Source: Parcubacteria group bacterium GW2011_GWA2_40_23 (GTDB lineage: Bacteria; Patescibacteriota; Patescibacteriia; UBA11705; JABHMO01). From it: a stretch of DNA of 43,665 bases. The notes below the pieces were generated by a model. The model was given only the letters and a program-made list of their open reading frames with translations, was not told where the DNA came from and ran no database searches. The stretch lies in contig LBYP01000008.1 of assembly GCA_000996245.1 (NCBI GenBank), positions 1 through 43,665 on the forward strand, given 5' to 3'. How positions within the stretch are numbered: the stretch's first letter is position 1; each line of letters begins with the position of its first letter. Shown one piece after another: positions 4,227 to 40,264 of the stretch. The translations under genes were made by a program, and so were the position numbers.

Positions 4227-6002
4227 CTATTTTAATTTGGATAATTCCTCTGACTTTGTTTGCATTTCGCGCATAAGCATCTGAATTTGTTCTTTATCAT
4301 TTCTTTTTTCAGCCGCTTCTAATTCTTTAGTAAGCATCTTGATAGTTGCTTCCAGGTGATGCTTGGTGAGGGTTTTGATTAAACCAATCAGTTCATTATT
4401 GATATCATCGATCCTAAAGCCCTCATAGACTTCATCAATATAAATAATCAGACTATCGAGATAGCTGGTTGGTAAATCGTGATTATTGGCTAACCACTCC
4501 ACAAGCTGTTTGCGGGTTAGCTCACAACTAGCCTCATTATAGTGTATTAATAAGTTTTTGTAAAAGGTAGCCATTTCCGTTGACTGAATATAATCGATTG
4601 GCAAAAACTCTTCGGCATAGGAAATCAACTGCGGGTGATTGATTAAAATAGTAAAAACTTTTTCCAAATACTTCATATCCTGTGTTTTTTCTACCTTGGG
4701 CTCAACAACAAAAGTCTTTTGTGGGTTCAGTGACGTCATTGATGGATTTGGGATTGATTCTCGTAAAATAGCTTCAGAAAGATCAAGCTTATTAGCTAAT
4801 TCTTTTAACCAATGAGCTTGTTCGATCTTATTTTTTATCTTAGCTAATTCCTGTAAAACAATTTTTGTTGCTGGTTTTTTAGTATTGATATTCGAAAGTG
4901 CTTCTTCAGTCAAATATTTATCTATGTAAAATTGCATGACCAATTTAGCACTACGCAAAGACTGTTCCCAAAGTTTAATGTCATGCTTAATACATTCGTC
5001 AGGATCTTTACCGTAAGCAAGTTGCACAATTTTAATATTCATTTCTGCGTCCCAAAGTAAATCGACTGAACGTTGTGCCGCGCGTTGTCCAGCTTCATCT
5101 TGATCAAAACAGAGAGCGATATTTTCTGTATATCTTTTCAATATTTTTATTTGCTCTACCGTCAACGCTGTCCCTGAGCAAGCAATCACATTTTTAAACC
5201 CGGCCTGATGACAAGCCACCACATCCATATTCCCTTCTACGATAATGGCATAACCATTGTCGCGAATCGCCTGTTTGGCTTTGTCCAATCCATACAGTGT
5301 TCGTCCTTTATGATAGATTGGATTCTCGGGAGAATTAATATATTTCGCAGCTTCATCTTTATTTAATGTGCGAGCGCTAAAACCAATCACATTACTATGG
5401 ATATCGAAAACAGGGAAAGTTACTCGATCGCGAAAACGGTCATAGTAGCCTCGGCCACCTGATTTTTCGACAGTCAGTCCTGCGAGAAAAATTTCTGCTT
5501 CCGTGAAATCTTTACTTTTTAAATATTTCAATAAATCATCCCAAGATTCTAAAGCATAACCAAATTTGAAAGATTTGATTGTTAATTCACTTAATCCACG
5601 TTTTTGTAAATATTCTAAAGCCTTTTTTCCTTGAGCCAAATAAAGAATTTCGTGCCAGTGATTGGTGGCAGCACTACAAATGTCGAGCAATCGATTTTTT
5701 TGGCTAGAAATTCTGGGATCGTATTGTTCCAGTTGAACACCGGCCTTGCCAGCTAAAAGACGTAAAGCCTCAGGAAAATCAATGCCCTCGATCTTTTGAA
5801 CGAAACTATAAATATCACCACCTTCGTTGCAACCAAAACAATGGTAAATTCCCTTATCTGGATTAACCATAAAAGAAGGGGTTTTTTCATTATGAAAAGG
5901 ACAGCGGCCTTTCCAGTTAACCCCTGCCTTCTTTAGTTGGACATATTCTCCTACGACTTGAATAATATCCAATTTTTGTTTGATTTCGTCTACTTGATCC
6001 AT
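4227..6002 (-). CDS. dnaG: DNA primase DnaG
   Basis: A 591-aa primase that makes RNA primers at the replication fork. The N-terminal CHC2 zinc domain has C34, H37, C55 and C58 (CPFH and CFGC). The catalytic TOPRIM region (about 250-310) shows [11 protein letters not shown] with its Glu and [11 protein letters not shown] with the metal-binding Asp residues. The C-terminal half carries the helicase-interaction region and is divergent, as usual. I took the ATG at 6002 because [13 protein letters not shown] matches the family start; a TTG nine codons upstream is possible but has no ribosome site. Cotranscribed with rpoD. Confidence 0.95.
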
Positions 6003-6070
6003 ATATTCCAATCTTAACTGAGAGAACAAAGTTTGGCAATTCCAGCAAACCCTCTAATGTAATAATTCGA

Positions 6071-7420
6071 TTATTTTTGAAGGCTCTTAATAATACTATT
6101 AAAATCTTTTGCTGATAACAAAGAACTTCGGGTTGCGGCAATTAAGGTCCCACCAGCGACAAGAACCGTTGGATCCTTAGTTAGAATCTGCTCCGGCCCA
6201 GACATGCCCAGTCTATCCGGTTGAGATTCTAAAGCTGTTCGAATCGGATCATCTACGGCTAATTGGTCTCGTTTTTCTTTTTCAGCACGATTTAAGGCTA
6301 CGCACAATTCCCCTATATCTAGTAAAGCCGCTGATTCCTGTTTAATTCCAATATCATACATATCGCCGCCTTTTCTATTTGCCCCGCCATAAACAGCCAC
6401 AATAGTATCTGGCGTTATTCTTTGATAGGCAATATTCGTAAAAGCAGTCGGTACTGTTTTGGGTTCCAACGCAATAATTACAGGAACCTCTATAGTTTCA
6501 CCTGTTTTCGGAACTTTAATTTTTATAGTAGTTCGTTCTGCCTGTTCAAAATCTTGATTAAAAACTTCCAGTTCTTTCCTGGTCAAAACTTTTCCTCGTT
6601 CAATTGATTCCTGAACTTCTGGAGCTAGGTTAATTACATGCGCATCCATGTCTTTTTCTGGGTCAAATTCAGAATTTGCAACAGCTGCATTTTCCGTTTC
6701 ATTCAAAACCTGAAACATTCTTTCAGCCAAAAGATTTTCGTATTTTGTTTTTATTTCATTTAATCTTTGCACACCCGCATCGTTCAATCGTCCATTGGGA
6801 GCCTTCATTTCTGGGTTTCCAAATACTTCCTTCCCTAGTTCTCCATCTCGTGCACTCGCCAAGTCAGATTTAATAGCTGAAAAAATTCCAGATAAACTAG
6901 CTAAATACTTTTCAATATCTGCCTCACGATACATCCCATAGTCTACCTTATTTACATGTTCCGCTAATTTCATTGCTCCAACTGGAAGTTCTTTTCTTTG
7001 AATTAAAGATTGTATTAAATAGCTCGAAACAATTGAGTCCAAGTCACCATCAGCGTGTGCCAAGGTTGTGTGGACACCTCTAGCCTCAATCATTCGAGAG
7101 ACATCATCAACATAGGTAACTATAATCTTAGCAGAACATCTGGGGTCTAATACTTGTCCTCGAACCCGGAACATATTATCTAGACGATGATGGTCTACAA
7201 CTCCCGTCTTAATCGTTTCAACATAACAATCACCAGTGCCTGTGACTTCAAAATCACCTGTATCAAGAACCATCTCACCGTCTTTGGGTTGTAATTTTTG
7301 CGCTTTGCCTAAATTGCACTTGCACTTTTCTGGGTCGAAATTAACAACTTTTAATAGACCTTTTTCACGTACGCCAGTTGTACCTTCTGGTTGTATTGTT
7401 GGGACTTGTTCGATAGTCAT
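6071..7420 (-). CDS. DHH-superfamily-like phosphoesterase with permuted motif order
   Basis: A 449-aa protein. HADGDLDSIVSS (122-133) closely resembles DHH motif I, the metal-binding DxDS stretch of family II pyrophosphatases and exopolyphosphatases. VVDHHRLDN (74-82) resembles the DHH motif. In that family DxDS comes first and DHH later; here DHH precedes it, after D53 and D56. HVNKVDYG (155-162) may supply another ligand, and YGGANRKGG near residue 355 recalls the glycine-rich DHHA substrate loop. Hydrolysis of a phosphoester, nucleotide or polyphosphate is therefore plausible but inferred. There is no signal peptide. It lies between dnaG and a small hypothetical gene. An unrelated fold with chance motifs is the alternative. 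Confidence 0.5.
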   Translation of the reverse strand: MTIEQVPTIQPEGTTGVREKGLLKVVNFDPEKCKCNLGKAQKLQPKDGEMVLDTGDFEVTGTGDCYVETIKTGVVDHHRLDNMFRVRGQVLDPRCSAKIIVTYVDDVSRMIEARGVHTTLAHADGDLDSIVSSYLIQSLIQRKELPVGAMKLAEHVNKVDYGMYREADIEKYLASLSGIFSAIKSDLASARDGELGKEVFGNPEMKAPNGRLNDAGVQRLNEIKTKYENLLAERMFQVLNETENAAVANSEFDPEKDMDAHVINLAPEVQESIERGKVLTRKELEVFNQDFEQAERTTIKIKVPKTGETIEVPVIIALEPKTVPTAFTNIAYQRITPDTIVAVYGGANRKGGDMYDIGIKQESAALLDIGELCVALNRAEKEKRDQLAVDDPIRTALESQPDRLGMSGPEQILTKDPTVLVAGGTLIAATRSSLLSAKDFNSIIKSLQK

Positions 7421-7463: not shown

Positions 7464-7772
7464 TCACTTTGTGTTGTAAATATCAGCAATGATTCCTGTA
7501 ATTCGACGAGCTTCATTTTCAACAGCTACTCCTTCATGCTCACCACCATGCGCCCTGGAACCTTCGTATGAAGCTTGTTTTTGGTCTAAGTGCATATCTA
7601 ACTCAAAATAAGTGTCATATTCTGTCAGATAGATATGAAAACGTGGATATAGCCCAGAACTTAAACGACGCGCAAAGCTTGGTTTTTCTTCATGACCTTG
7701 CCATGTCGCGTAGCTGCAACGTTTAATCAACTCATCTGGCTTGATGTTGCGGAGTGGAAATTTAAATTTCAT
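7464..7772 (-). CDS. Conserved small hypothetical protein
   Basis: A 102-aa protein beginning MKFKFPLRNIKPDE; I took the ATG at 7772 over an in-frame TTG at 7784. Its composition and its HIYLTEYDTYFELDMHLDQK segment suggest a compact alpha/beta domain. It contains several His (HGGEHEG) but no motif I can tie to a reaction. There is no signal peptide or membrane segment. It lies 19 nt downstream of alkD on the same strand and probably shares its transcript. I have an impression that such proteins recur in CPR genomes, but cannot verify it here. Confidence 0.6.
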   Translation of the reverse strand: MKFKFPLRNIKPDELIKRCSYATWQGHEEKPSFARRLSSGLYPRFHIYLTEYDTYFELDMHLDQKQASYEGSRAHGGEHEGVAVENEARRITGIIADIYNTK

Positions 7773-7791
7773 ACTGTTAGTCAAGTAATAA

Positions 7792-8580
7792 TTAAACTAT
7801 AATCAAGAAAACAAGAAAGCAACGAAGCAAAAAGCATAGCGACCTGTTTGTTTTCTTGCTTTCTTGCTTTTTTGCTGAGATCTCACCTATTCCACCATTC
7901 AGATACTGCTGACGTTTAGCTTCAGGGAACTTTTCAATTGAATAACGCAGCATAGTCCTTGGCATCATTTTATACCATTTTCGCAAAAATGTCTCTTCTA
8001 CGGGCAAATCTCTCTTACCAACTTCGCGTAACATCCAACCGACGGCTTTGTGAATCAAATCATGTTTGTCTCTGATCAAAATTTCTGCAATCAACAAAAA
8101 ATCCTCAAACTGGTGCTGTTTAATAAAACTAAATGTTGTCAATACAGCAATTCTTTTTTTCCAAAGATTATTTGAACGAGCAAATTCATAAATGATTTTT
8201 TTATCCTTGTCGACAAGATATTCGCCAACTATCTTCGGAGTGGTGGTATCAATAATGTCCCAATTATTAAGTGCACGCCAATTTTTAAGATAAAATTTGT
8301 AGATCTGTGCTCTTGTTTTTTCGTCAGCTCGTTGAAACTTATAAACGAGTATAAAAGCACCAAGGAGTCGTTCCTCATGATAAACGCTTTTGAGTAATAT
8401 TTGCACTTCGGGAAAACTTGATTCGACAAACTGCTTGGCCAACGCGCGAAGAACTGGAACTTTAATTCCCAAAAATTTATCACCAGCGCCGTATTCACCA
8501 ACTCCTGTTTTAAAAAAACGAGACAAATTTTTCGCTTGTATTTTGTTTTGTCGTTTAATCAATTCTCTGTGGATGTCCAT
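7792..8580 (-). CDS. DNA alkylation repair protein AlkD-like
   Basis: A 262-aa HEAT-repeat DNA glycosylase of the AlkD family, which removes cationic alkylated purines such as 7-methylguanine without base flipping. The family core is clear: an N-terminal GVGEYGAGDKFLGIKVP, repeated HEAT helices, NNWDIIDTTTP with the presumed catalytic Asp, and the C-terminal MMPRTMLRYSIEKFPEAKR. AlkD normally ends near here (about residue 228). The last ~33 residues, Cys/Leu/Phe-rich, are encoded by an imperfect inverted repeat at about 7801-7875, so the original stop may have been lost by repeat insertion. It starts 7 nt after the AlgJ-like gene. Confidence 0.88.
   Translation of the reverse strand: MDIHRELIKRQNKIQAKNLSRFFKTGVGEYGAGDKFLGIKVPVLRALAKQFVESSFPEVQILLKSVYHEERLLGAFILVYKFQRADEKTRAQIYKFYLKNWRALNNWDIIDTTTPKIVGEYLVDKDKKIIYEFARSNNLWKKRIAVLTTFSFIKQHQFEDFLLIAEILIRDKHDLIHKAVGWMLREVGKRDLPVEETFLRKWYKMMPRTMLRYSIEKFPEAKRQQYLNGGIGEISAKKQESKKTNRSLCFLLRCFLVFLIIV
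7801..7875. repeat. Imperfect inverted repeat at the 3' end of alkD
   Basis: A-rich words aagaaaacaagaaagca on the left and complementary tttgttttcttgctttcttgc on the right, separated by a short loop. It encodes the unusual AlkD tail and could also act as a transcription pause or terminator. Confidence 0.45.
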
Positions 8581-36925: not shown

Positions 36926-36954
36926 TTGACAAAAACTAGATTCTATGCTATACT
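36926..36954 (+). promoter_or_regulatory. Strong promoter of the first zinc-protein pair
   Basis: TTGACA (36926-36931), 17-bp spacer, TATACT (36949-36954) with extended TGC. Only 7 bp separate its -35 box from that of the divergent secD promoter. Confidence 0.9.
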
Positions 36955-36996: not shown

Positions 36997-37248
36997 ATGG
37001 CAAGTCTGTTCGACGATCCTGGGCGCATGCCCCCAGACGCACAGCCGTGCGAGTTCCACCCGTGGAGCTCCTCGACAACGCGTCGCGTGTCAGTCAACGG
37101 AGTCATCTGCTACGCAAACGTCTGCGACGAGTGCCACCTGCACGGGGCTCCGGTGGAGTCTCGGATCGACAACGCCGACGAGGCCTACGACGAGGACGGC
37201 TTCGACCCCCGAGACCAAGAAGAATACGCGGCGGAGCGCCGTCTCTAG
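36997..37248 (+). CDS. Small CxxH/CxxC zinc-motif protein 1
   Basis: A predicted 83-aa acidic protein that I cannot assign. The start ATG 36997 has GGAGG (36987-36991) before it; the upstream ATG at 36958 sits at the predicted transcription start and is excluded. C18-x2-H21 and C43-x2-C46 (CEFH...CDECH), 22 residues apart, would bind one zinc. The C-terminal third is Asp/Glu-rich (NADEAYDEDGFDPRDQEEY). It shares its ligand pattern with the next two genes and the first of them is 28 nt downstream in the same transcript. The composition is GC-rich, unlike flanking secD. There is no membrane segment, so it is likely cytosolic. Confidence 0.7.
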   Translation: MASLFDDPGRMPPDAQPCEFHPWSSSTTRRVSVNGVICYANVCDECHLHGAPVESRIDNADEAYDEDGFDPRDQEEYAAERRL

Positions 37249-37276
37249 ATCAACAACACCACCTCGGAGGAACCCC

Positions 37277-37561
37277 ATGTCCGCTCAAACCCACGGCCAC
37301 CCCGAAGTCGCCCCTCGCATGCCGAAGGGCCAGCGTTGCGACCACCACAGCGATCGCCCCGCGGTCGCGCGAGTCCTGAAGGCGTCGGACGGCGACAGCC
37401 GTACCTACGCCGACCTGTGCGAGGAGTGCTACGGCCTGTACCAGGACGACCAGCACCTCGACGAGCTGGCGCGCCTGGTCCAGCCGATCAACGAAGAAGC
37501 GGTCGTGCGCAAGCTCGACGACGCCGCCATCGACCAGTGGTTCGATAGCGTCCCGCACTAG
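37277..37561 (+). CDS. Small CxxH/CxxC zinc-motif protein 2
   Basis: A 94-aa protein, second gene of the cassette. ATG 37277 follows GGAGG by 6 nt. The zinc-type core is C21-x2-H24 (CDHHSDRPAVAR) and C48-x2-C51 (YADLCEECY). HSDRP[AS]VAR recurs in protein 3, and the CEEC half in all three. The tail is acidic, helical and Leu/Asp-rich (QHLDELARLV... AIDQWFDSVPH), possibly a partner-binding helix. GC is 68% over 37381-37440 by count, against about 25% in the spacer 37621-37680. Not a known family to me; a nucleic-acid or protein-binding knuckle is conceivable. Confidence 0.7.
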   Translation: MSAQTHGHPEVAPRMPKGQRCDHHSDRPAVARVLKASDGDSRTYADLCEECYGLYQDDQHLDELARLVQPINEEAVVRKLDDAAIDQWFDSVPH

Positions 37562-37578
37562 ACCGACGCGCAACAACG

Positions 37579-37610
37579 ACGCCCTCCTGCCTCAACAAGC
37601 AGGAGGGCGT
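37579..37610 (+). terminator. Terminator of the zinc-protein pair
   Basis: A perfect 12-bp stem acgccctcctgc/gcaggagggcgt (37579-37590, 37599-37610) with an 8-nt loop; the following T tract is short and broken (tcaattt). It resembles the next terminator (38067-38100) in core sequence. Confidence 0.8.
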
Positions 37611-37640
37611 TCAATTTACAAAAAATATCAATCTAAATCA

Positions 37641-37669
37641 TTGACAACTACTTATAAAAGGTCTGTACT
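37641..37669 (+). promoter_or_regulatory. Promoter of the membrane zinc-motif gene
   Basis: TTGACA (37641-37646), 17-bp spacer, TGTACT (37664-37669). It starts 31 bp after the preceding terminator stem, so this gene is a separate unit. Confidence 0.7.
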
Positions 37670-37722
37670 TAGAGTGTATTGAGGCAGACAATCAACCACA
37701 ACGACCTTGAAAGGAACACATC

Positions 37723-38064
37723 ATGGAACTCTTACTTTACTTTTTCTTTGGCTGGAAGATCACTCTTGCCATATTGTTTAGCCTCTTTCTGCTGTTTATC
37801 CTTTGTGGGTGTTTTATTAAAGACACACGAACAGCAAAAGAAAGAGCATCTTGTACAAGTATCCCCGGGGGGCTGCCGCCTGCTGGCATGGGCTCGCCCA
37901 CAACCTGCGATTTCCACTCAGATCGCCCCAGTGTCGCCCGTATCTGCTGCCAAATAGGCAAGCATCGCTACCGTTGGTACGACATGTGTGAGGAATGTCA
38001 TGAGGGACATCTCAAAAGAAGGTACAGAGAAATGGAAAAGCTCGACATCGATAACGCCAATTGA
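37723..38064 (+). CDS. Membrane-anchored CxxH/CxxC zinc-motif protein 3
   Basis: A 113-aa protein with the same core as proteins 1 and 2: C62-x2-H65 (CDFHSDRPSVAR) and C89-x2-C92 (YDMCEECH). A hydrophobic N-terminal segment (residues 2-32, LLLYFFFGWKITLAILFSLF) should anchor it in the membrane. A Pro/Gly linker with extra Cys (RASCTSIPGGLPPAG) separates anchor and core, and the tail is basic-helical (HLKRRYREMEKL). ATG 37723 follows AAGGA by 7 nt. The 5' part is less GC-rich than the core (68% GC over 37861-37920), as if a membrane anchor had been joined to a family core. The topology is not settled. Confidence 0.7.
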   Translation: MELLLYFFFGWKITLAILFSLFLLFILCGCFIKDTRTAKERASCTSIPGGLPPAGMGSPTTCDFHSDRPSVARICCQIGKHRYRWYDMCEECHEGHLKRRYREMEKLDIDNAN

Positions 38065-38066
38065 AA

Positions 38067-38100
38067 AGCGCCCTCCTACTTCTACAAGTTGGGGGGCGTT
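38067..38100 (+). terminator. Terminator of the membrane zinc-motif gene
   Basis: Stem 38067-38080 with 38087-38100 (left agcgccctcctact) with one mismatch and two G-U pairs, followed by aaattttg. It shares the gccctcct core with the terminator at 37579-37610. Confidence 0.75.
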
Positions 38101-38115
38101 AAATTTTGTTGAAGA

Positions 38116-39108
38116 TTACTTTATCTCATTCCCAACTGGGAATCTTTCTAAATATTTTTCACTAACATTAATTACTGCAGACCATTTCCAACCACGGTCG
38201 TCGAAAGCACCAAGACTGGTAATATATTGTTTTTGTTTATTTTTAATCAGATACACTCGGTTAGTGGAATTGGAACGCACTAAAATATTATCTTTAAGTT
38301 TGCCTTCATTTATAAGTGGCGAATATCCAGACGCAACTTCTTCTCCATCAAGGTAACTGTCTTTGTCTGTGTCCGGAGAAAAAAGCAAAGTTCTGCTTGC
38401 GATTTCATCACTCTTTTTTAATTGATCCTTATCTGCATCGATATCTTTGGAATTAACAATTTCCTTTTGTGTAAAAACTGCCACACGATATTCATCTTTT
38501 TCTTCGTTCATTTTTTTGGGTGCCCAATCGTGCATGGCCTTCATGATAGTATCAAATGAATATTCATAATTGAGGCCATACTTTGTTCCTGGATCTTGTG
38601 ATATAAAAACACTTCTATAATTATCATATCCAGAAAGTACAATGACATGGTAATCTGGTCCACCATTTAAAAAATTGGGATTATTAAGCCAGGTACCACT
38701 TGTGGGGAGGATGATAGGCCGACCGGCATCCAATTCCTTTTTAAATTCATCAATGGTCGGCCGCAAAGCAACATGCGCTTCCCAATTGAAAAAGTTATTA
38801 ATGATGCTAACAATTTCTTCCGCATTTTCATCATAACTGGCACCAAAACTTTTTTCTTTAATTTCTAATGTTAATTTGATGGCATTGCGCGCTGAGTCGG
38901 CAGTTAGTTGTTTATTGTTATAAAATGCATCGACCATAACGATCGATGATTCTTCGCAAGCATCTTGCCAGGGTTGGCTCCAATTACCAAATGGCGCCTG
39001 TGAAGTAAAACTGATTACCAACTTACCTGCGACCACGGGAAAAACAAGCAAGGCCATTAAACCCAAGACAATAAATAATAAATAATTTTTAAGTCGATGT
39101 TTGGTCAT
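38116..39108 (-). CDS. C39-like papain-fold peptidase with a calcium-binding segment
   Basis: A 330-aa secreted or membrane-anchored protein. Residues ~8-32 form a signal anchor. The peptidase_C39-type core has Cys51 (QPWQDACEESS), His154 (PDYHVIVLSGYD) and Asp172 (SQDPGT). A DTDKDSYLDGEE motif near residue 265 resembles EF-hand/thrombospondin-type-3 calcium loops, and a C-terminal ~65-residue beta domain (VRSNSTNRVYLIKN) follows. ATG 39108 is chosen: TGC-TACAAT ends 7 nt before it, so the transcript would begin at the ATG. The longer GTG frame starts before the promoter. The gene overlaps the 3' end of the transposase by 20 nt. Confidence 0.8.
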   Translation of the reverse strand: MTKHRLKNYLLFIVLGLMALLVFPVVAGKLVISFTSQAPFGNWSQPWQDACEESSIVMVDAFYNNKQLTADSARNAIKLTLEIKEKSFGASYDENAEEIVSIINNFFNWEAHVALRPTIDEFKKELDAGRPIILPTSGTWLNNPNFLNGGPDYHVIVLSGYDNYRSVFISQDPGTKYGLNYEYSFDTIMKAMHDWAPKKMNEEKDEYRVAVFTQKEIVNSKDIDADKDQLKKSDEIASRTLLFSPDTDKDSYLDGEEVASGYSPLINEGKLKDNILVRSNSTNRVYLIKNKQKQYITSLGAFDDRGWKWSAVINVSEKYLERFPVGNEIK

Positions 39109-39643
39109 GAGGATATTGTAGCAAATTTCGAGGGTTATCACGAATGTACTTTCTGATATTTATTAATTCTTGTGTTGTTTTAATAATATGATCATGGAAA
39201 GAACGCTTCCAAACAAAAACATTATTATCAGATTCTTTATGTATAATTTTTGAGGAAGTCGTTTTAAAAGCTCCGATTAGATCAGACAACGATTTTTTTG
39301 GGTCGGTACGTGTAAGTCGCGACTTACACGTACGTAAACAATTCATATCCGTACGTGCAGGTCGCGACCTGCACGTACCAATGTCTTCAATGCTGATTAT
39401 CCCATGGAAATGATCTGGCATAACAACAAATTCGTCTAAGCGAACATAATGATATTGTTTTCCCAACCACAACCATTGTTTCTCAACTATCTTTCCGTTC
39501 ATGTTTAAAACTATCTCAGCATTTAATAATTCACCCAATGTTTCAAATTTATTTTTAATACAAATTGTCACAAAATATAAACCAGGAGCAGAATAATCGT
39601 GCCCTAATTGACGCGTTCTTTTATTTTCATTAAAATAAAACAT
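39089..39643 (-). CDS. REP-associated tyrosine transposase (RAYT, HUH family)
   Basis: A 184-aa Y1-HUH transposase related to IS200/TnpA. The HUH motif is MPDHFHGII (H78, H80) and the predicted catalytic Tyr is Y166 in IRKYIRDNP. RAYTs cut and join single-stranded DNA at REP palindromes. Residues ~89-113 (a Cys/Arg/Thr-rich stretch) are encoded by a 73-bp pair of REP palindromes lying in frame inside the gene. The linker between HUH and the following helix (KKSLSDLIGAFK) is variable in this family, so the insert may be tolerated. No second ORF or terminal inverted repeats are apparent. Confidence 0.9.
   Translation of the reverse strand: MFYFNENKRTRQLGHDYSAPGLYFVTICIKNKFETLGELLNAEIVLNMNGKIVEKQWLWLGKQYHYVRLDEFVVMPDHFHGIISIEDIGTCRSRPARTDMNCLRTCKSRLTRTDPKKSLSDLIGAFKTTSSKIIHKESDNNVFVWKRSFHDHIIKTTQELINIRKYIRDNPRNLLQYPHDQTST
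39115..39143 (-). promoter_or_regulatory. Promoter of the C39-like gene inside the transposase
   Basis: Extended -10 TGC-TACAAT (39120-39115), with only a weak -35 (TCGTGA, 39143-39138). It predicts a start at about 39108, on the ATG, so the transcript would be leaderless. Confidence 0.5.
39306..39378. repeat. REP palindrome pair inside the transposase gene
   Basis: Two perfect 28-bp palindromes, 39306-39333 (core gtaagtcgcgacttac) and 39351-39378 (core gcaggtcgcgacctgc), separated by exactly 17 bp. They differ only by compensating changes near the middle. They are part of the transposase coding sequence. Confidence 0.9.
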
Positions 39644-39695
39644 CTATTAACTGCACCAAACAAAACTCCTTAACATCGGTACTAGAACCAGCTAC

Positions 39696-39725
39696 GACCA
39701 TTTTCGTGATGTCACGAAAATGGTC
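39696..39725. repeat. Perfect inverted repeat
   Basis: A 14-bp stem gaccattttcgtga/tcacgaaaatggtc with a 2-bp loop, between the DinD-like gene and the transposase. No T run follows, so a terminator is unlikely; it may be a cruciform or binding site. Confidence 0.7.
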
Positions 39726-39784
39726 TAAAATATTTCTAATTTTTATTGCTTTTATATTTTCACTTCAAAATTTACATCCAGCCC

Positions 39785-39857
39785 GTACGTGTAAGTCGCG
39801 ACTTACACGTACGCGATTGAACCATATCCGTACGTGCAGGTCGCGACCTGCACGTAC
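39785..39857. repeat. REP palindrome pair at the end of the DinD-like gene
   Basis: The same 73-bp unit as at 39306-39378: palindromes at 39785-39812 and 39830-39857 in the same order, with a 17-bp spacer that is only partly conserved (the catatcc part is kept). Confidence 0.92.
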
Positions 39858-40264
39858 CATTGGTTAATATTCACTAACTTTGTAGTTTTAATTTCTTGAC
39901 GCCTTGTCTGAATTGCAAAATAGGTTTGCGCTAAAGCAATTTCTTCTTTTCTAGGGTCACCGTTTTGAGCGATTAAATAGCATGCATAACGCGAAAGAGT
40001 AAAATCTTCCAATATCTGACCTAGGATTTCTCCATACTGATTGTTTGACTTTTGGGGTTCGCTCACATGAGCGAAGTGCAGATTTATTTTTTGCCCACTA
40101 TTAGAACAAGCCTTTTGTGCTCGTTCTATAGCCGGCAAAAATTTACTGTATTCAGTGTAGCCCAAAAGTTTATACAAATCACGCGCACTCCAAAACTCTT
40201 GCCCATAAGCATTAACTTTCTTGATCTGCTCGAAAACATTAACAGGAGATCTTTTCATTTTCAT
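39803..40264 (-). pseudogene. DinD-like/BRO-type gene truncated by a REP pair
   Basis: A 153-aa frame. Residues ~11-127 match the DinD/BRO-N family: FEQIKKVNAYGQEFWSARDLYKLLGY, then DFTLSRYACYLIAQNGDPRKEEIALAQTYFAIQTRRQE. DinD proteins are about twice as long; the match stops right after QTRRQE, and from about residue 136 the frame runs into the REP pair and encodes low-complexity residues. The C-terminal half is missing from the window. DinD modulates RecA filaments in E. coli, but BRO-like proteins have other roles. A shortened functional protein cannot be excluded. ATG at 40264 or 40258. Confidence 0.8.

Follow-up and report, generated by a model that had tools for sequence, protein, structure and literature searches.

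Three tandem genes between secD and secA

The window, a stretch of 43,665 nucleotides (contig C8), belongs to a genome of 1.22 Mb that is 99.8% complete (G000). Between secD and secA it carries three small genes together with candidate transcription signals:

36926..36954, forward strand: promoter serving genes 1 and 2 as a unit, TTGACA-17-TATACT, in AT-rich sequence; TG precedes the -10 element, and 11 of 12 positions match the consensus
36997..37248, forward strand: gene 1, 83 amino acids, with a CEFH-x22-CDECH core and an acidic tail; a probable divergent family member, marginal in a leave-one-out test
37277..37561, forward strand: gene 2, 94 amino acids, with a CDHH-x23-CEECY finger and a predicted helical acidic tail; a clear single-finger homologue of PHROG 15864
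37578..37611, forward strand: GC-rich hairpin, probably a terminator, its T tract being weak; 13 pairs, 8-nt loop, -26.9 kcal/mol, z = -7.7
37641..37669, forward strand: possible promoter of gene 3, TTGACA-17-TGTACT with a weak -10 element, found by eye and absent from the promoter scan output
37723..38064, forward strand: gene 3, 113 amino acids, with an N-terminal hydrophobic segment (approximately residues 13-32), then the finger, CDFH-x23-CEECH, and after it a short charged tail
38067..38100, forward strand: the hairpin repeated downstream of gene 3; 82% identity to the first over 38 nt, -21.4 kcal/mol, z = -4.3

The first-pass annotation of this DNA had proposed a small family of tandem genes sharing one zinc-binding core. 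The three open reading frames lie where it had placed them and have the translations it described, with the motifs CEFH, CDHH and CDFH, and CDECH, CEECY and CEECH, in genes 1, 2 and 3, respectively. The distance from the last His to the first Cys is 22 residues in gene 1, as had been given, but 23 in both genes 2 and 3, where 24 had been reported. HSDRP[AS]VAR is indeed shared exactly by genes 2 and 3, and the extra membrane segment ascribed to gene 3 corresponds to a single hydrophobic segment, in which the highest-scoring run of 19 residues (mean 2.76) begins at residue 14. The net charges of the three proteins are -11, -8 and +2.

The genes apparently form one two-gene and one one-gene transcription unit, and a search of the genome for the hairpin pattern returned only the copies after genes 2 and 3. 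In relatives with a readable region, the order secF, secD, secA is kept and the secD-secA gap is variable. The gap in the window also holds a C39-like peptidase, a nucleoside deoxyribosyltransferase-like protein just under the Pfam cut-off, a Y1 transposase and a Bro-N protein. Within 39089-39867, the Y1/REP-type transposase gene contains repeated RTCRSRPART / RTCKSRLTRT-like peptides, which recur in an open reading frame at 39706-39867 and suggest a REP-like repeat at the DNA level.

Genes 2 and 3 are the closest pair, with 15 of 32 residues identical (BLASTP E = 1e-8); the matches of gene 1 to the other two are weaker (E = 8e-4 and 6e-4). When gene 1 was left out of the profile, it scored ~6.5 (E ~4) and did not stand out from the other frames of the window genome; of 2000 shuffles with Cys and His fixed, 36-56 scored as well. 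Its membership therefore relies on adjacency, co-orientation and an identical layout, namely a P-rich lead, CxxH, a spacer of hairpin length and CDECH, and on these grounds gene 1 probably belongs with genes 2 and 3. The proposal of one core reused with different ends is supported for genes 2 and 3, whose ligand positions are kept across 76 non-redundant homologues, and is marginal for gene 1. A profile that includes all three genes matched just these three in the genome, where further copies had been sought.

Relation to a phage protein family

The pattern had been thought to match no named family. This stands insofar as Pfam, NCBIfam and PADLOC offer no matching family of known function, and searches of these collections with the fingers returned nothing meaningful; PHROG 15864, however, does match, with E-values of 6.6e-8 for gene 2 and 1.5e-5 for gene 3, and a 39-member phage profile gave 39.9 and 28.9 bits, respectively. 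Gene 1 has no match to the PHROG 15864 profile. PHROG 15864 is a recorded family of proteins of ~120 amino acids, annotated as function unknown, whose full-length members contain two fingers and the sequence GETDS, within QGETDSFGxE, in the first hairpin. GETDS is invariant (76 of 76 non-redundant homologues). The ligand columns of finger 1 hold C in 75, H in 70 (C in 2, Y in 2), C in 76 and C in 74 of these sequences, and the CxxC...CxxC ligands of finger 2 are kept in 74-75. All three window genes possess the finger-1 ligands CxxH...CxxC, whereas the QGETDSFGxE motif and the second finger, CxWC...VCxxC, are absent from each, and their place is the secD-secA gap rather than a phage or prophage, none of the annotated neighbours being recognised as a phage structural gene. 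Genes 2 and 3 are almost certainly relatives of the PHROG 15864 family. Since the motif and finger 2 are missing, we class the window genes as divergent partial homologues and not as full members, and the function of the phage family may not carry over to them.

No collection searched yielded a close relative of genes 1-3. A single-protein scan with gene 2 gave no relatives on the genome contigs and, on the viral contigs, two false matches, in which 15 residues aligned antisense to phage head genes. Searching 142 relatives with gene 3 produced weak matches only, many in frames with stops, and a profile built from just genes 2 and 3 (two rows) matched nothing viral. Outside the window genome, matches to PHROG 15864 across the phylum covered only profile positions 58-117, the finger-2 half, and were excluded as members. 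Similarity of the locus to GC-rich phages at the DNA level was short (2-5% of the query) and was read as compositional.

The phage family itself is found in at least 95 viral contigs, and also in prophages of rhizobia, Rhodobacterales and enterobacteria (named genomes), in phage-plasmids and in jumbo phages. Examples include Klebsiella phage vB_KvM-Eowyn (CAD5236251.1; Eowynvirus) and its relatives, as well as plasmid records of 41-47 kb from Enterobacter (WP_063861751.1) and Phaeobacter, the former bearing phage-type regulators. Tandem copies occur in viral or prophage DNA as well (L081, L202, L201). On viral contig L201 two members, at 6001-6381 and 7750-8142, differ in finger 1, one having CxxH and the other CxxC, which constitutes a natural ligand swap between paralogues. 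Literature searches gave no match for GETDSFG and nothing useful on function.

Recurrent neighbours of the phage members are a phage integrase, an exonuclease-like protein, DUF2303, DUF5131 and HNH proteins. They place the family in an accessory region of phages, which does not in itself reveal the function. The window genes might be a defence or toxin-antitoxin module of paralogous small proteins, as their small size, tandem arrangement and own promoter, in a variable gap with a Y1 transposase and a Bro-N gene, would allow. We regard such a module as very unlikely: PADLOC matched none of the three proteins, which are three copies of one fold with no toxin-like partner, and the phage homologues lie near integrase and exonuclease genes, a setting that would also suit a counter-defence gene.

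Among the 381 genomes searched in the class, three carry the family: the window genome, G009 and G095. The copies in G009 (L132:1441-1818) and G095 (L133:1444-1809) are full-length, mutually 67% identical, and have CxxC in place of CxxH in finger 1. Such natural swaps between CxxH and CxxC support a role of these positions as metal ligands. The G009 copy, which has a Shine-Dalgarno sequence and a terminator-like hairpin, has a GC content of ~53% in surroundings of 34-40%; the excess is less marked in G095.

Predicted fold of the fingers

AlphaFold2 modelled the full-length member L076 with a mean pLDDT of 85.5. In this model, finger 1 comprises strands 34-41 and 44-50 and helix 52-64, finger 2 comprises strands 82-85 and 95-98 and helix 100-119, and QGETDSFG occupies the turn of the first hairpin. 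The gene 2 model contains the same first unit, with a core pLDDT of ~90-96, while two less certain helices replace finger 2. Both models, in which no zinc was included, follow the order knuckle, two-strand hairpin, and helix starting from the second Cys pair. In a treble clef the second Cys pair starts a helix, and the fingers are thus predicted with good support to adopt this fold. A zinc ribbon, with two knuckles on β-hairpins, was rejected as the helix begins at the second Cys pair in both models.

The PDB holds no solved relative by sequence and none that is convincing by fold. The viral library returned the Eowyn protein (E = 2e-13) and, more weakly, jumbo-phage proteins from Noxifer, PaBG and RSL2.

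McsA/ClpE-type proteins have fingers of comparable CxxC/H spacing, and the window genes could on that account represent a home-grown cellular zinc-finger family unrelated to phages. This reading is hardly tenable: the proteins match no Pfam or NCBIfam zinc-finger family, as McsA/ClpE-type members would, the closest relatives carry no copies, the GC content is foreign, and the significant match to the PHROG profile largely refutes it.

Base composition and probable horizontal transfer

Genes 1 and 2 form an island of 65-69% GC, gene 3 has ~46-54%, and the genome as a whole 39.7%. The idea that the genes arose by duplication is in keeping with the 38-nt hairpin, 82% identical, that genes 2 and 3 share, but given the strong difference in GC a simple local duplication is unproven; copying may have preceded transfer, or the genes may have arrived separately.

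An abrupt change in GC, together with the lack of a counterpart in the corresponding gap of relatives, could also betray contamination or a chimeric contig. This we consider highly improbable, because the block is flanked by secD and genes of native GC, an AT-rich promoter immediately precedes it, the GC content of gene 3 is intermediate, many similar islands exist in the same genome, and G009 repeats the pattern with another family member.

Across the genome, 74 of 1192 open reading frames of at least 80 amino acids have a third-position GC of at least 0.68, the native mode being 0.25-0.40; in stretches from three relatives (G001, G005, G006) only 3 of 385 frames are equally GC-rich. The window genome therefore stands out by its number of GC-rich units, examples of which are C12:39551-46401, C2:50501-52251, C21:12851-15401 and C19:24101-31851. 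Ten were scanned; TelA, flotillin, MFS and FdtA-like proteins are among them, and six had no Pfam match. Their upstream flanks are AT-rich (37% GC). Promoters of the form TTGACA-17-TATAAT with at least 10 of 12 consensus positions precede 29 of the 74, compared with 19 of 150 native genes, and a GC-rich hairpin follows 44 of the 74. A short interspersed repeat, TACTAATTACGAATCnnCTACTAATCTACGAATA, has 32 matches in this genome, whereas 400 kb of sequence from three relatives contains none; at several sites it lies just 3' of the terminator of a GC-rich gene (e.g. L261:18279, L259:3367).

These units may be viewed as a lineage-wide mode of gene capture, in which single GC-rich foreign frames that end in strong hairpins enter AT-rich slots supplying a near-consensus promoter, and the interspersed repeat lies close to several of these frames; at this locus, a phage finger would have been captured, then shortened and duplicated, and in one case redirected to the membrane. 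We put this forward as a rather doubtful conjecture. Transfer itself would be ordinary, given the gene gain documented in groundwater Patescibacteria: one study (PMC12455944) describes acquisition through islands, single genes and prophages, amounting to up to 13% of genome length.

The genes might instead be decaying remnants of phage genes with no present function. Finger 2 and the invariant QGETDSFGxE have been lost, gene 1 is strongly diverged, four other genomes of the taxonomic family gave no copy by single-protein or profile search, and a truncated single-finger copy also occurs in Paracoccus genome L073. However, the three frames are intact with all four ligands in each, and they come with a near-consensus promoter, strong hairpins and a third-position GC of 0.79 in gene 1 and 0.88 in gene 2. 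Decay is thus unlikely.

Proposed action and comparison with known systems

We favour the reading that genes 1-3 are horizontally acquired, phage-derived single-finger paralogues that probably serve as zinc-dependent protein or nucleic-acid adaptors. Its parts differ in strength. Horizontal origin is very probable, and a phage origin is well supported; the molecular function we infer. The putative fingers very likely bind zinc, and the chances that the proteins are adaptors or regulators rather than enzymes are roughly even.

The gene would have come from a mobile element or foreign donor, finger 2 and the hairpin motif QGETDSFGxE would have been lost, and the copies would have diverged in their tails. 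Each finger would hold one zinc via CxxH...CxxC and form a compact cytoplasmic adaptor gripping a protein or nucleic-acid partner, with gene 3 keeping an equivalent finger at the membrane. Basic residues follow the hydrophobic segment of gene 3, and fingers with free Cys need a reducing compartment, so that this finger probably faces the cytoplasm; its N-terminus could alternatively be a lipoprotein signal (LCGC) instead of a cytoplasm-facing anchor. The window proteins have lost the invariant motif, which speaks against their performing the role of the phage protein; perhaps only the scaffold is retained.

A phage protein that is widespread, carries an invariant motif and has no assigned function appears to have entered bacterial genomes that are small and streamlined. 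In the cut-down copies the zinc-finger scaffold occurs apart from the hairpin motif, and comparing both forms could therefore show which part bears the phage function.

With treble-clef fingers in general, the window fingers have in common the predicted knuckle, hairpin and helix with the second ligand pair at its start. The N-terminal dimerisation domain of Lsr2 (PDB code 4e1p) likewise has a hairpin followed by a helix, and Foldseek aligned it to the gene 2 model with a TM-score by target of 0.63 and a probability of 0.69; the E-value of 0.74 and the lack of a sequence match, however, make this a resemblance of shape only. The G009 and G095 copies are lone genes of the same family in small genomes and, like the window genes, are more GC-rich than their surroundings; they have two fingers, QGETDSFGAE and CxxC in finger 1, and are not close to the window genes. 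Compared with PHROG 15864, the window copies lack both QGETDSFGxE and the second finger, a membrane segment is present in gene 3, and the setting is a tandem array in a cellular genome, whereas finger 1 (CD.H..RPAVAR...D[LM]C.EC) with equal spacing, the P/G-rich lead and the acidic tails are shared.
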